Of a DNA stretch of 32,494 nucleotides, positions 1,018 to 32,490 are shown one piece after another; the stretch's first letter is position 1; the number at the start of each line of letters is the position of its first letter. The notes under the pieces are model-generated. The model saw nothing but the letters and a program-made list of their open reading frames with translations, had not been told where the DNA came from and ran no database searches. The stretch is from Polyangium sp. 15x6 (GTDB lineage Bacteria > Myxococcota_A > Polyangia > Polyangiales > Polyangiaceae). The position numbers and the translations under genes are program-made. The stretch is taken from positions 1 to 32,494 of the forward strand of contig NZ_JASBQE010000124.1 in assembly GCF_029960785.1 (NCBI RefSeq), written 5' to 3'.

Positions 1018-1422
1018 CGCAGCGGAGCAGGTGATCGCCGGCGGGTTTCCGCGGGAGGAAAGTCCGAGCTCCGCAGGGCAGGGTGCCGGGTAACGCCCGG
1101 TGAGGGTGACCTCGAGGAGAGTGCAACAGAGAGAAACCGCCGGCTCGAAGGTGCCCTCGTGGTGCTCGTCCAGTCGGTAAGGGTGAAACGGTGGGGTAAG
1201 AGCCCACCGCACCTCCGGTAACGGAGGTGGCTAGGCAAACCCCACCCGGTGCAAGGCCGTGTAGGGAGGCGATGGGATCGAGAGGTCCCGAGAGGACGGC
1301 CCGTCCGATGCCTCCGGGTTGGCTGCTGGAGGCACGTAGCAATGCGTGCCCTAGAGGAATGATCGCCGACGCTCCGGGGGTGACCCCGGGGCGAGACAGA
1401 ACTCGGCTTATGAGCCGCTGCG
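1018..1422 (+). ncRNA. rnpB: RNase P RNA (bacterial type A)
   Basis: This is the catalytic RNA of ribonuclease P, which matures the 5' ends of tRNAs. The hallmark segment GAGGAAAGTCCGAGCTCC lies at about 1057-1074. It is followed by AGAGTGCAACAGAGAGAAACC, by GGTAAGGGTGAAACGGTGGG with the AAGAGCCCACCGC block, by the GGTGCAAGGCCG segment, and by AGAGGAATGATCGCC and ACAGAACTCGGCTTA near the 3' end. The first and last bases pair as the P1 helix: CGCAGCGG at 1018-1025 with CCGCTGCG at 1415-1422. The length of about 405 nt is normal for type A. Ends are set from P1 pairing and could be off by a few bases. Open frames across this region are accidental. Confidence 0.97.
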
Positions 1423-1424
1423 AC

Positions 1425-1465
1425 CGAGGGGCTCCGATCGAACGATCGGGGCCTCTCGCTTTTTT
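1425..1465 (+). terminator. Rho-independent terminator of rnpB
   Basis: A near-perfect stem pairs cgaggggctccgatcg with cgatcggggcctctcg around an AA loop at 1441-1442. It is followed directly by a run of six T residues at 1460-1465. It sits just after the P1 helix of RNase P RNA. Confidence 0.9.
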
Positions 1466-4959: not shown

Positions 4960-5312
4960 GGTCTCATCTGGGAGGCGCTTCGCTGGGGCGTTGCCCCAGG
5001 CCCCACCAGGGGCTATCCGCCCCTGGACCCGGACCAGCGCAAGCGCTGGACCCGAGGTCGATGAACTGCGCGATGCGCAGTTCATCGAACAGGCCGAGGC
5101 AAGAGCAGCTACGACCCTGCCAACCAAAACTGCCGCGCGGACCTCTCAGCCGGCAACGCCGTCCCTGGTCTTCCAACGGGCCCGTTGGAAGAACTGCGCG
5201 GAGCGCAGTTCTTCCACCCTCGGTCCAGGCCGTGCCTGGTCCGGGTCGAGGGGCGGACAGCCCCCGCGGGGTCCGGGGCAGCGCCCCGGCGAAGCGCCTC
5301 CCAGATGAGACC
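4960..5312. repeat. Two inverted copies of a dispersed multi-hairpin repeat
   Basis: Copy A reads rightward from 4960 to about 5098, and copy B reads leftward from 5312 to about 5165. Their outer 75 bases form terminal inverted repeats beginning ggtctcatctgggaggcgct. Within each copy the order is a GGGGC-GCCCC hairpin, an AGGGGC/GCCCCT-type hairpin, a GACCAG-CTGGAC hairpin, and a 12-13 bp hairpin with core AACTGCGC-N3-GCGCAGTT (5060-5086 in A, 5188-5214 in B). B also holds the 20-base palindrome 5171-5190. A third copy lies at 32370-32490. There is no transposase and no clear target duplication. The right end is 5 bases from the stop of the formate dehydrogenase gene, so it may also act as a terminator. 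Confidence 0.88.
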
Positions 5313-5317
5313 AACGC

Positions 5318-8167
5318 TCAGGCAGGTGGCAAGGCCTCCGCCGTGTCGCCGGAGGGGCGCGAGAGGCGGACCGCGCAGAACTTGAATTCGGGGATCTTTC
5401 CGAAGGGATCGATTGCGTCGATCGTGAGCACGTTGGCGGCGGCCTCGCGGAAATGGAACGCGATGAAGACGCTGCCGACGCCGACCTTCGTGCTCGATCG
5501 CGCGACGAGCTCGATCGAGCCGCGGCGCGAGGTGACGCGGACGCGCTCGCCTGGACGAACGCCGAGGCGGGCGAGGTCCTCGGGGTGCACCTCGACGAAG
5601 GCCTCGGGGGCGATGGCGTCGAGCGCGTAGGAGCGCCGGGTCATGGTGCCCGTGTGCCAGTGTTCGAGCAGGCGGCCCGTGTTGAGGACGAACGGATACT
5701 CGGCGTCGGGCGTCTCGCGGGCTGGCGTGTATTCGCAGGGCACGAGCTTTCCGCGGCCGTCGGGGGTCGGGAAGCCGTCGTCGAAGAGGATCTGGACGCC
5801 GTCCTTGGCCGAACGATCCGGCGCGGGCCAGAGGCGGCCGGCCTTGCCGAGGATGTCGTAATCGAGGTTCTGGTAGGCGTCCGTGAGCGAGGTGAACTCG
5901 TCGAAGATGTCGGAGACCTTCGTGTACGGCATGGGATAACCCATGCGGTTCGAGATCTCGCAGACGATCTGCCAGTCGAGCCGCGCCTCGCCCGGCGGTT
6001 TCAGGGCGGGGCGGCCGATCTGGACGCGGCGATCGGTGTTCGTGTAGGTCCCGAGTTTTTCGAGGTAACTCGTGGCCGGGAGGATCACGTCGGCGAACTC
6101 GGCCGTCTCGGTGAGGAAGATGTCCTGCACGACGAGGAAATCGAGCTTCGCGAGGGCTTTTTTGACCTTGTTGACGTTGGGATCCGAGAGGAACGGGTTT
6201 TCGCCCATGCAATAGAGGGCCTTGAGCTTGCCTTCGAGCGCGGCGGTCGTGATTTCGGTGACCGTGAGGCCCGGCTTCGGGTCGAGCGGGACGCCCCAGG
6301 CGCTCTCGAATTTGGCGCGGATGGCCGGGTCGGCGACGCGCTGATAATCGGGGTACATCATCGGGATGAGGCCGGCGTCGCTCGCGCCCTGGACGTTGTT
6401 TTGCCCGCGCAAGGGGTGCAGGCCCGTTCCGGGCCGGCCGACGTTGCCCGTGACGAGGCAAAGCGAGATGAGGCAACGCGCGTTGTCCGTGCCGTGCGTG
6501 TGCTGGGAGATGCCCATGCCCCAGAACGTGATCGCCGCCTTTGCAGAGCCGTACGCCCGCGCGATCTCGCGGATGAGATCCGGCGCGACGCCGCAGATCT
6601 CGCTCGCGACCTCGGGGCTGTAACGCGCCACGGTTTCCTTCAGGGCCTCGAAGCCGGTCGTGTGGTTTTCGACGTAATCGGCGCGGTACAGGCCCTCGGC
6701 GAGGAGGACGTGGAGGATGCCATTGTAGAATGCGACGTCGGTGCCGTTGCGAATGCGGGCGTAACGCCAGGCGTATTGCGCGACATCGGGGCGGCGCGGG
6801 TCGACGACGATGAGCTTCGTGCCGCGCGCCGCGGCCTGCTTGAAGAAGGACGAGGCGACCGGGTGGTTCGCCGTGGTGTTCGTGCCCGCGAGCAGCGCGA
6901 CGTCGGCCTCGGCGATGCCGGCGAACGTGTTCGTGACGGCGCCCGAGCCGATCGTCTCGAGCAGCGCGGCCACGCTCGACGCATGGCAGAGCCGCGTGCA
7001 ATGGTCGACGTTGTTCGTGCCGAAGACGGCGCGCACGAGCTTCTGGAAGACGTACGCCTCCTCGATCGAGCATTTCGCCGAGCCGAAGCCGGCCATCGCC
7101 GCGGGGCCGTGGGTATCCCGCGCCTCGCGCAGGCGGGTCGCCACGAGGTCGAGCGCTTCGTCCCAGCTCGCCTCGCGGAATGCGGGCAGGACGTCCTCGT
7201 ATCGCACGAGGTGCCCTTTCCGGCGCCCGCCGCGCGCCTCTTCGGGCGCGTCGGAGAGCGAGCCTTTCGGATATCGCACGCGGACGAGCGGCTTCTGGAG
7301 CCGCTGCGGGTGCATGGCGTAATCGTAGCCGTATCGGCCCTTCACGCAGAGCCGCTCGTGGTTCGCCTCGCCGTCGCGGCCGTCGACGTACACGATGCGA
7401 TTCGCCTCCTCGTCGACGTTGTACGTGAGCGCGCAGCCGACGCCGCAATAGGGACAAACGCTGTCGACCTGCTTCAAATGCACGCGCGGCGCGAGCGGCG
7501 CGCTCACGGGCTTGTTGACGAGCGCGCCCGTGGGACAAACGGCCATGCATTCGCCGCACGAGACGCACGTGCTCTCGCCCATCGGGCGATCGAGGTCGAA
7601 GCCGATCCGCGCGCCATAGCCCTTGCCCGTCCGGCCGATGACGTCGTTGTGCTGGATCTCGTCGCAGCCGCGGACGCACCGATCGCAGAGGATGCAGGCG
7701 TCGTGGTGGACGGAGATGACCTTCGACGAGCCGTCCTCGCCGCGGCCCTTTCCGTGGGGCAGGCGGCTGCCATCAACGCCGTAGCGGCGGGCGAGCGCGT
7801 AAAGCTCGTTTCCCCCGGTGGTGCTCTCCTTGGGGCAAACCTCGGGCTGGTCGCTCATGAGCAGCTCGACGAGGACCTTGCGCTGGCGCTCGACGCGTGG
7901 TGACGCCGTGGCGACCTTCATGTTCGGCTCGCAAGGCCGCACGCACGAGGCCGCGAGCGTCCGGCCGCCGACGTCGACGACGCAAAGGCGACAGACGCCG
8001 ACGGGGCGGAGGCGCTCGTCGTGGCAGAGGACCGGGATGTCGATGCCGAGGGCCTTCGCCGCTTCCCAGATGGTGGTGCCCTCGGGGACGGTGACGCTCT
8101 TTCCGTCGATCGTGAGCGTGACGGTGCGCGGGGTCGTGGCCATCTCCGGTGCCGCGGGCGCTTGCAT
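5318..8167 (-). CDS. fdhF: Molybdopterin formate dehydrogenase-like catalytic subunit with NuoG-type iron-sulfur domain
   Basis: A cytoplasmic oxidoreductase of 949 residues, likely oxidising formate to CO2. The N-terminus has a NuoG-like 2Fe-2S domain (C48, C59, C62, C75). Two 4Fe-4S clusters follow (C158/161/164/168 and C201/204/207/211), then a further 4Fe-4S site in CPYCGVGC (238-245) plus C274 at the start of the molybdopterin domain. RLCHASSVAALLETIGSGA carries C394-H395 at the position of the Sec/Cys-His pair of formate dehydrogenases, so this is a Cys enzyme. The C-terminal domain has LNTGRLLEHWHTGTMTRRS. This order matches NAD-dependent FdsA-type subunits, but no fdsB, fdsG or fdhD is nearby. 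The start at 8167 is a choice; 8143 and GTG 8239 are also possible. The symbol is by family only. Confidence 0.9.
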   Translation of the reverse strand: MQAPAAPEMATTPRTVTLTIDGKSVTVPEGTTIWEAAKALGIDIPVLCHDERLRPVGVCRLCVVDVGGRTLAASCVRPCEPNMKVATASPRVERQRKVLVELLMSDQPEVCPKESTTGGNELYALARRYGVDGSRLPHGKGRGEDGSSKVISVHHDACILCDRCVRGCDEIQHNDVIGRTGKGYGARIGFDLDRPMGESTCVSCGECMAVCPTGALVNKPVSAPLAPRVHLKQVDSVCPYCGVGCALTYNVDEEANRIVYVDGRDGEANHERLCVKGRYGYDYAMHPQRLQKPLVRVRYPKGSLSDAPEEARGGRRKGHLVRYEDVLPAFREASWDEALDLVATRLREARDTHGPAAMAGFGSAKCSIEEAYVFQKLVRAVFGTNNVDHCTRLCHASSVAALLETIGSGAVTNTFAGIAEADVALLAGTNTTANHPVASSFFKQAAARGTKLIVVDPRRPDVAQYAWRYARIRNGTDVAFYNGILHVLLAEGLYRADYVENHTTGFEALKETVARYSPEVASEICGVAPDLIREIARAYGSAKAAITFWGMGISQHTHGTDNARCLISLCLVTGNVGRPGTGLHPLRGQNNVQGASDAGLIPMMYPDYQRVADPAIRAKFESAWGVPLDPKPGLTVTEITTAALEGKLKALYCMGENPFLSDPNVNKVKKALAKLDFLVVQDIFLTETAEFADVILPATSYLEKLGTYTNTDRRVQIGRPALKPPGEARLDWQIVCEISNRMGYPMPYTKVSDIFDEFTSLTDAYQNLDYDILGKAGRLWPAPDRSAKDGVQILFDDGFPTPDGRGKLVPCEYTPARETPDAEYPFVLNTGRLLEHWHTGTMTRRSYALDAIAPEAFVEVHPEDLARLGVRPGERVRVTSRRGSIELVARSSTKVGVGSVFIAFHFREAAANVLTIDAIDPFGKIPEFKFCAVRLSRPSGDTAEALPPA

Positions 8168-31369: not shown

Positions 31370-32353
31370 ATGACCATCCGCGGCTTCACGATAGACGGTT
31401 TTCTCCTCGCGCTCGTCGCCGTCGTGGCGCTCGCGATCGTGATGCCCGGGCCCGGCTCGACGGGCGGCCTCCTGCACATGAACGAGGTCTCGACCTACGG
31501 CATCGCCGTCGTCTTCTTTCTCTACGGCCTGACGCTCGCGCCGGAAAAGATGAAAGCCGGCATCAGGCATTGGCGGCTGCATCTCTGCGTCCAGCTCTGC
31601 ACCTTCCTGCTGTTCCCGGCGGTGGTGCTGCTGTTCGGCACGCCGCTGAAGAGCTTCATGCCGCAGGAAGTCTGGATCGGCTTCTTCTATACCGCGGCGC
31701 TCCCCTCGACCGTCTCCTCCTCGGTCGCGATGACCTCGCTCGCGCATGGCAACGTGCCGGCCGCGATCTTCAACGCCACCCTGTCGAGCCTGATCGGTGT
31801 CTTCGCGACGCCGCTGCTGATGGCCTGGTTCCTGTCGACGGCCGGCGTGGCGATGCCGCTCGGGCCGGTGATCGGCAAGGTCGTCCTGCTCGTGCTGCTG
31901 CCGATCGTCATCGGTCAGGTGGCGCGCCATTGGCTCGCTGCCTGGGCGCAGCGCAATGAAAAGCAGATCAAGCTGGCCGACCGGGCAATCATCCTCGCGA
32001 TCGTCTACAACTCGTTCTCCGATTCGATCGTCGAGGGCGTCTGGCAGGGCCATGACGCCCTGCGAATCGTGGGGATCCTCATCGGCGTCGTCGCGCTGTT
32101 CTTCCTCATCTACGGGCTCATGTCGATTCCCTGCCGCCTGCTCGGCTTCGACCGGCCGGACACGATCGCCTGCCTCTTCTGCGCATCGAAGAAATCGCTC
32201 GCCACCGGCGTGCCCCTCGCGCCGCTCATCTTCGGCGCCAACCCGGCGCTCGGCCTGATCATCGCGCCGATCATGCTCTACCACTTCTGCCAGCTCGTGA
32301 TCGTCAGCGTCATCGCGAACCGCAGCGCGCGCCTCACCCTGGCGACAGCCTGA
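31370..32353 (+). CDS. Bile acid:sodium symporter (BASS/SBF-like) family transporter
   Basis: 327 residues with about nine or ten membrane helices, for example FLLALVAVVALAIVMPGPGS, VSTYGIAVVFFLYGLTLAPE and LPIVIGQVARHWLAAWAQRN. Family motifs include FFYTAALPSTVSSSVAMTSL, FNATLSSLIGVFATPLLMAW and CASKKSLATGVPLAPLIFGA. This type (YfeH-like) probably moves organic anions with sodium; the substrate is unknown. ATG 31370 is preferred over 31334. Codon use in the middle of the gene is richer in CTG than its neighbours, which use mainly CTC (about 22 CTG to 27 CTC in all by hand count), and it is followed 16 bases later by the dispersed repeat. Gene transfer is possible. Confidence 0.93.
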   Translation: MTIRGFTIDGFLLALVAVVALAIVMPGPGSTGGLLHMNEVSTYGIAVVFFLYGLTLAPEKMKAGIRHWRLHLCVQLCTFLLFPAVVLLFGTPLKSFMPQEVWIGFFYTAALPSTVSSSVAMTSLAHGNVPAAIFNATLSSLIGVFATPLLMAWFLSTAGVAMPLGPVIGKVVLLVLLPIVIGQVARHWLAAWAQRNEKQIKLADRAIILAIVYNSFSDSIVEGVWQGHDALRIVGILIGVVALFFLIYGLMSIPCRLLGFDRPDTIACLFCASKKSLATGVPLAPLIFGANPALGLIIAPIMLYHFCQLVIVSVIANRSARLTLATA

Positions 32354-32369
32354 GTTTCTTGTTGGGACC

Positions 32370-32490
32370 GCTGCGCTGGGGCGTTGCCCCAGGCCCCAGC
32401 AGGGGCTGTCCGCCCCTGCACCCGGACCAGCCAGGGGCTGGACCCAGGACGATGAACTGCGCGATGCGCAGTTCATCGCACAGGCCCGGT
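32370..32490. repeat. Third copy of the dispersed multi-hairpin repeat
   Basis: It matches copy A (4977-5098) base for base over most of its length: the GGGGC-GTT-GCCCC hairpin, AGGGGC-tgtcc-GCCCCT, GACCAG-CTGGAC and the 12-bp hairpin GATGAACTGCGC-GAT-GCGCAGTTCATC at 32451-32477. It lacks the outer ggtctcatctgggaggcg end seen in A and B. The window ends four bases after it, so an inverted partner may lie beyond. Confidence 0.85.

Follow-up and report, generated by a model that had tools for sequence, protein, structure and literature searches.

The window analysed here, the whole 32,494-nucleotide stretch of Polyangium sp. 15x6 and a complete contig (C27) of an assembly of 13.4 Mb in 275 contigs, carries repeated sequences that fold into successive hairpins. 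This raises the question of what kind of element they represent, and of what keeps their stems paired. The original prediction had recognised three copies, A, B and C, with four hairpins each, taken paired changes in the stems as a sign of selection on a folded RNA or single-stranded DNA, and named as candidates a REP/BIME-like or MITE-like family, a terminator and an RNA.

The three copies were found at the predicted positions with all four hairpins. A covariance-model search, using an alignment from which A, B and C had been left out, recovers each of them (E-values 1e-24 to 1e-20; matches at 4967-5099 on the plus, 5175-5305 on the minus and 32360-32490 on the plus strand). Their mean column identity is about 80%, and the folding z-scores of A, B and C are -6.4, -4.2 and -4.6, respectively, with no shuffled sequence folding as well. 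The stem letters that had been quoted (GATG/CATC versus GAAG/CTTC; CC/GG versus GC/GC) are correct, and so are those of the three third-hairpin loops, but these "loops" prove to be largely stem themselves. Likewise A and B are real, but they are the two arms of one inverted composite element of about 350 bp rather than independent copies. The window spans the whole contig, and copy C, lying at its terminus, is a half element truncated there. The features are as follows:

4960-5321, no strand assigned: entire composite element, made up of the A half, the spacer, the inverted B half and the right 15-bp terminal repeat
4960-5098, plus strand: A half, outer to inner; outer terminal repeat damaged, with GGTCTCATCT kept
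4983-4999, plus strand: A hairpin 1, CTGGGGC/GCCCCAG
5006-5026, plus strand: A hairpin 2, CCAGGGGC/GCCCCTGG
5034-5049, plus strand: A hairpin 3, CCAGCG/CGCTGG; the hairpin entered by an IS in congeners
5059-5087, plus strand: A hairpin 4, 13-bp stem CGATGAACTGCGC, loop GAT
5099-5164, plus strand: spacer between the halves
5165-5312, minus strand: B half, inverted
5186-5216, minus strand: B hairpin 4, stem TGGAAGAACTGCGC
5225-5239, minus strand: B hairpin 3
5247-5266, minus strand: B hairpin 2
5273-5289, minus strand: B hairpin 1, CCGGGGC/GCCCCGG
5307-5321, minus strand: terminal inverted repeat CTGAGCGTTGGTCTC, one mismatch to the consensus
32354-32490, plus strand: copy C, a half of type A lying immediately behind the stop codon of the called gene 31370-32353
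32376-32392, plus strand: C hairpin 1
32399-32419, plus strand: C hairpin 2, GCAGGGGC/GCCCCTGC
32427-32441, plus strand: C hairpin 3
32450-32478, plus strand: C hairpin 4

No gene is called within the composite element, and both this and its length of about 350 bp are as in MITEs. The TGA of its right terminal repeat (5318-5320) also provides the stop codon for the adjacent gene (called at 5318-8167, minus strand); copy C has no partner half before the contig ends. At curated scores the sole Rfam match in the window is a class A bacterial RNase P RNA (1019-1425, plus strand), with none on the element. Elsewhere in the window, positions 1-373 are occupied by a tandem array of a 43-bp unit (8.7 copies at 94%) that begins at the first base of the contig.

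The element belongs to a large family that is practically confined to one genus. The hairpin 4 pattern GAACTGCGCNNNGCGCAGTTC has 480 matches in the window's genome (G000) and 37, 431, 248, 183 and 177 in five congeners; beyond Polyangium it was encountered once each in two of 284 other genomes, and its backward control gave no match in any genome. A 21-base pattern of the element end has three exact matches, all in Polyangium, in a named genome collection that may omit records very near the window's genome. A profile search of 457 kb of the window's genome (81 pieces picked around known copies, hence not a random sample) detected 201 half elements, 170 of which are arranged head to head as 85 pairs, separated by a spacer with a median length of 68 bp. 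Sixty-one of these pairs consist cleanly of one A and one B half, and the other 24 are incompletely typed or odd. The remaining 31 halves (of 116 units) stand alone; several lie at contig ends or are cut by the fetched stretch, and some have a long insert ahead of the partner. A full copy thus comprises a terminal repeat, the four hairpins of the A half, a spacer of about 68 bp, the four hairpins of the B half in inverted order and a second terminal repeat, the core of each half being about 110 nt. Halves at site 4 of the congener G004 and beside the IS of the congener G002 (see below) retain this plan with a very different hairpin-4 stem. Four long elements of the window's genome (C239:5612-6144, C23:10435-10927, C22:175530-176079 and C7:10388-11037) contain, by eye, a minisatellite of GCGCACGTGCTCGTGCCCGGAGAGGATGAGGACG-like tandem units in or beside the spacer. 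At C32:9611-9691 (L291) there is an 81-bp mini palindrome, apparently derived from the element by internal deletion, which retains two terminal repeats and little beyond hairpin 1. Gene ends were also seen to carry a further dispersed hairpin, GGGGCTACGCTCGG/CCGAGCTACGCCCC or a sequence near it (L136 on C23 and L217 at site 14 of the congener G005).

The 19 bp CTGAGCATTGGTCTCATCT are common to the outer ends of the element, which read CTGAGCATTGGTCTC(ATCT). At up to two mismatches CTGAGCATTGGTCTC occurs in 66 places in the window's genome, versus two for the backward control; in the 30 of these loci that were read, an intact hairpin 1 follows 36 of 38 ends, and a damaged or mini form follows the other two. 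Both ends are recognisable (at most five mismatches each) in 12 of the 85 pairs, and in five of these 12 the flanks match in eight or nine of 9 bases, a level reached by none of 132 mismatched flank pairs. Nine bases is also the only length with a peak in flank identity (0.61, versus 0.24-0.35 at lengths 4-8 and 10-13), and a named P. fumosum copy has GGCCATGGG on either side. When all 82 pair elements tested are considered together, the frequency of direct repeats at the flanks does not exceed that in mismatched flank pairs, and at sites 13 and 17 additional bases or a longer duplication, of about 22-25 bp, take the place of a clean 9-bp one. A preference of the element for palindromic targets was considered and rejected, as only one of the six duplication-bearing sites is a strong palindrome (12-bp stem); stems at the other five are 2-5 bp, the mean at gene ends being 3.7.

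Comparison between species is also consistent with mobility. Twenty element sites were located in three congeners through their flanking genes, and among the resulting 60 comparisons the element is present in 13, a weak version in one, and none in 46 (both flanks lay within the fetched stretch in 38 of these and one flank in eight). In six of the seven shared sites tested the best match of the spacer is not the orthologue, suggesting that even shared sites may be separate insertions or replacements.

A candidate for the enzyme that moves the element came from the DDE_Tnp_1 matches in four congeners. These include five copies of an IS of 1503-1504 bp with an open transposase frame: four in G005 (1504 bp, 99.6-100% alike) and one in G002 (1503 bp, 86.7%). 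The IS ends in CTGAGCAYTGGTCTCATCT or CTGAGCATTGGTTCCATCT, and the right end of the G002 copy equals the element end over 19 bp. Its transposase of 475 residues matches the IS4 model NF033590 (E = 1.4e-75), scores above the cut-off for the Pfam domains Tnp_DNA_bind, DDE_Tnp_1 and Dimer_Tnp_Tn5, and is matched by the Tn5 transposase structure 1mus (E = 4.5e-36); the residues that we take to be catalytic in Tn5 (two D and one E, in a Y-R-E-K motif) are kept in that alignment. Both the transposase model and domains, and the 9-bp duplication together with 19-bp ends, place the IS in the IS50 group of the IS4 family. The target duplication is exact in three of the five copies, extends to eight of 9 bases in one and is lacking in one. 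Four of the five sit in hairpin 3 of an element: two of them duplicate GGCACGGCC and one AACCAGGGC, while in the fourth hairpin 3 flanks the IS on one side only, without a duplication. The fifth lies outside any element, with eight of 9 bases duplicated. As elements cover about 0.2% of G005, the chance of four landings in five is roughly 1e-10. The single IS copy outside an element is at 5.33 Mb in G005 (L210/L288), some 1 kb away from site 7; the gene end at that site is occupied by an element in the window's genome and in G002, but not in G005. In the window's genome itself there are seven DDE_Tnp_1 matches, none with these ends, and no intact IS was found; one of the seven, on contig C144, is a diverged relative (L290; 62% amino acid identity over 217 residues, with the end CTGACCATTCATCTCATC).

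Taken together, the evidence makes it likely, judging from sequence comparisons, that these repeats are a single Polyangium-restricted MITE mobilised in trans by a Tn5/IS50-type transposase of the IS4 family, the IS itself favouring hairpin 3. The enzyme would recognise the 19-bp ends CTGAGCAYTGGTCTCATCT and duplicate 9 bp upon insertion, and the same IS would prefer hairpin 3 of the element as its own target, making the hairpin array both cargo and landing pad. We infer that this partner transposase moved the copies now found in the window's genome. The MITE-like reading among the original candidates has therefore held up, through the terminal inverted repeats, the 9-bp duplication, the element-free sites of congeners and the IS with the same ends.

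The high copy number, the inverted pairs, the intergenic position at gene 3' ends and the use as an IS target are also typical of REP/BIME sequences, in which palindromic units are spread as single-stranded DNA by a RAYT tyrosine transposase and the inverted pair (REPIN) is the mobile form; halves that lack ends or stand alone resemble REP units. However, a search for the RAYT that the original prediction had envisaged found none in the window's genome: its sole Y1_Tnp match is an IS200-type fragment (NCBIfam IS200, 52.9 bits against a cut-off of 55), and the surrounding 3.2 kb contain no element. Moreover, the readable ends are of the IS type and are accompanied by 9-bp duplications, which a RAYT would not make. 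The element is REP/BIME-like in look and placement, but a REPIN mechanism is improbable.

Orientation relative to gene ends had been singled out for checking in the original prediction. With genes called by our own script, none of the 81 pair elements having at least 600 bp on both sides lies inside a called gene; 38 are between convergent, 34 between codirectional and nine between divergent genes. Most of the sampled elements touch gene 3' ends, and each half is in the sense of the gene that ends at it. In 400 kb of G005 taken at even spacing, the element occupies three of 62 convergent, three of 179 codirectional and none of 58 divergent gaps. Of 133 gene ends, 14 have a stop codon at the position of the terminal-repeat TGA, and about 12 of these retain a readable repeat. 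Such placement, with the strong hairpins and the double changes in their stems (see below), would suit a cis-acting RNA at mRNA ends, namely a bidirectional terminator or stability element of which each half serves the abutting gene and which is kept by selection on the transcript fold. At site 7 of G005, where the element is absent, a GC-rich hairpin followed by nine T was seen by eye, suggesting that the element may replace a terminator there.

Several observations weigh against this role. Special nearness to stop codons was rejected as a property of the element, because element-free convergent gaps are equally short (median 12 bp in G005, n = 59; 17 bp in the sample of the window's genome, n = 25) and the summed stop-to-hairpin-1 distances where the element is present have a median of 51 bp. 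Convergent genes almost meet even without an element, so that abutting stop codons are ordinary. The elements come and go between species at most of the compared sites. None of 132 element-side 3' ends fits a U-tract rule of our own, a result that says little as the rule also fails at 197 other ends of the sample and holds for one of 303 in G005; with the U-tract absent after the hairpins, the terminator proposed earlier was not demonstrated. Considering also the base-pair composition described below, we regard an RNA-level function at mRNA ends as unlikely. If the element is instead a MITE of the Tn5-like IS, its position at gene 3' ends could mainly reflect selection that removes insertions from genes and promoters.

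Along the chromosome of G005 the 92 exact-match places, in which a palindrome read in both directions is counted once, merge into 87 sites and are restricted to 2.3-10.0 Mb of 13.2 Mb, and 82 of the 87 fall in the middle half of the record (P = 5e-19). A region of some 5.5 Mb around dnaA (at 11.65 Mb) is thus free of them; among the first one-mismatch places listed, at least one, at 1.31 Mb, is an exception. The A-type exact matches number eight plus and nine minus before 6.6 Mb and four of each after it; splitting them at 5.0 Mb, opposite dnaA, gives one and six, and 11 and seven, respectively. Other DDE_Tnp_1 matches do occur in the stretch avoided by the element.

The covariation of the stems is genuine. 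The 222 distinct cores were reduced to 35 representatives less than 92% alike, 31 of which were aligned, with four omitted because a hairpin was missing or interrupted (L008, L095, L134 and L128). Double changes affect 15 of the 35 pairs of the four helices in these 31 halves (shuffle mean 8.2) and 91 cells (shuffle mean 28.4), and none of 500 shuffles attains either count; the 20 further pair types are equalled by 45 of the 500 and are not exceptional. Paired cells make up 98.7% across the 31 sequences, and one-sided variation is absent from every pair. When the partner is shifted by 1-3 columns at most four pairs and eight cells with double changes remain. The paired changes underlying the original prediction therefore exceed chance, but they bear no sign of selection at the RNA level. 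In 29 pairs of the 222 cores there are 6388 Watson-Crick cells, 11 G-U (five of them in one column pair), seven A-C, 22 other mismatches and 10 with gaps, 6438 in all. An RNA under selection should favour G-U, and here G-U is hardly commoner than A-C, so that nothing favours RNA over DNA. The covariation is thus real without being good evidence for an RNA.

Paired changes need no such selection, because copying between copies and template switching can produce them; template switching is a published source of compensatory changes (PMC8794818). Under this explanation, which is compatible with the MITE, stems are rewritten by template switching or gene conversion, one arm or one hairpin at a time. 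The absence of one-sided variation in the 31 sequences is in line with this, as is one locus, site 8. Here the nearest relative of the spacer is the G004 orthologue (rank 1, 87% over 100 bp), whereas for the A core a paralogue from the same genome is an identical match, with the orthologue only in 44th place (5.6% away). However, this one clear case concerns the A half, the B-core orthologues ranking 6th and 14th (5.7 and 6.6%, versus 3.8% for the best paralogues), and homogenised cores could be mimicked by repeat collapse in an assembly fragmented into 275 contigs. Furthermore, hairpin inversion, which template switching can cause, was dismissed as more than a rare source of changes because loops mostly keep their orientation (GAT 129 versus ATC 7; TCC 44 versus GGA 1). 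The chances that rewriting, rather than selection, accounts for the compensatory changes seem to us evenly balanced.

The state of the ends bears on the same issue. A recognisable end (at least 13 of 15 bases) is preserved in 22 of 89 A halves and 10 of 81 B halves. A cores have on average 3.8 mismatches with an end (n = 22) versus 2.9 without (n = 57; P = 0.25), and 7.5 (median 4) in ten intermediate halves; the corresponding means for B cores are 7.9 (n = 10), 8.9 (n = 67) and, in between, 5.0 (n = 4). As the loss of ends is not clearly accompanied by greater divergence of the core, it is not accounted for by simple ageing, and homogenisation of cores would explain the combination of lost ends and uniform cores. 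For the MITE of the Tn5-like IS this would mean that DNA-level processes, such as copying between copies and template switching at hairpins, contribute more to keeping the stems perfect than does selection on an RNA. Extending this, one might tentatively picture a self-sustaining IS/MITE pair, in which the arrays multiply through the IS ends, the IS multiplies by entering hairpin 3 instead of genes, and copying at the DNA level preserves hairpins that are perfect and, inside any one genome, alike, giving compensatory changes without RNA selection; on balance we would not yet expect all of this to hold.

Covarying stems are usually taken as proof of a functional RNA. Here the strong covariation belongs to a transposon that shows no preference for G-U pairs and whose hairpin variants are not the same even in copies occupying a single site. 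The family hence offers a test case both for how much trust covariation deserves and for the part of template switching or gene conversion in producing it. With hundreds of sites it also provides a marker system for a genus with large genomes.

In summary, this is a new MITE family of a Tn5-like IS that is BIME-like in look. In the literature searched, no paper deals with both Polyangium and miniature inverted-repeat elements, and among the 15 of 412 matches listed for myxobacterial or Sorangium REP and MITE sequences no title points to a family of this kind, which is no proof of unpublished status. With REP, BIME and REPIN sequences it shares inverted pairs of palindromic units, intergenic location, gene 3' ends, hundreds of copies and use as an IS target, but no RAYT partner was found for it, its four-hairpin halves are about 110 bp long, and it has ends of the IS type and duplications of 9 bp; a REP unit measures 20-40 bp by the definition in PMC3733652. 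ERIC is a bacterial MITE with terminal inverted repeats and target duplications, non-autonomous and mostly intergenic. The same properties are reported for RUP, Correia and QMITE2 in PMC10969869 and PMC2229807, and unlike these MITEs the present element has two four-hairpin modules with covarying stems and acts as a landing pad for its partner IS. The BrickBuilt MITE of Porphyromonas gingivalis (PMC4596501) has a minisatellite within the MITE as do four long elements here, but its sequence and host are different, and in the present family the tandem repeat is exceptional rather than a fixed part. REP sequences are known IS targets, among others for the IS4-family element ISRm22, which enters palindromes and whose Sinorhizobium meliloti copies all lie in REP sequences (10 of 10 in the table of PMC1525189, nine in its text); the sections consulted make no mention of IS ends shared with the palindromic repeat, whereas the target family described here carries them. 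Tn5/IS50 itself is homologous in the DNA-binding, catalytic and dimerisation parts of the transposase and has a 9-bp duplication in common with the present IS. Tn5 ends are 19 bp long and begin with CTGA, a further likeness to the ends seen here. Unlike Tn5/IS50, the present IS is accompanied by hundreds of copies of a MITE family that bears hairpins and shares the IS ends, and one of these hairpins is the preferred target of the IS. Two habits of IS elements, the making of MITEs and the landing in REP-like palindromes, are thus joined in one pair: REP-targeting IS4 elements and bacterial MITEs were already known, and what is new is an element that shares its ends with the IS that lands in its hairpins.
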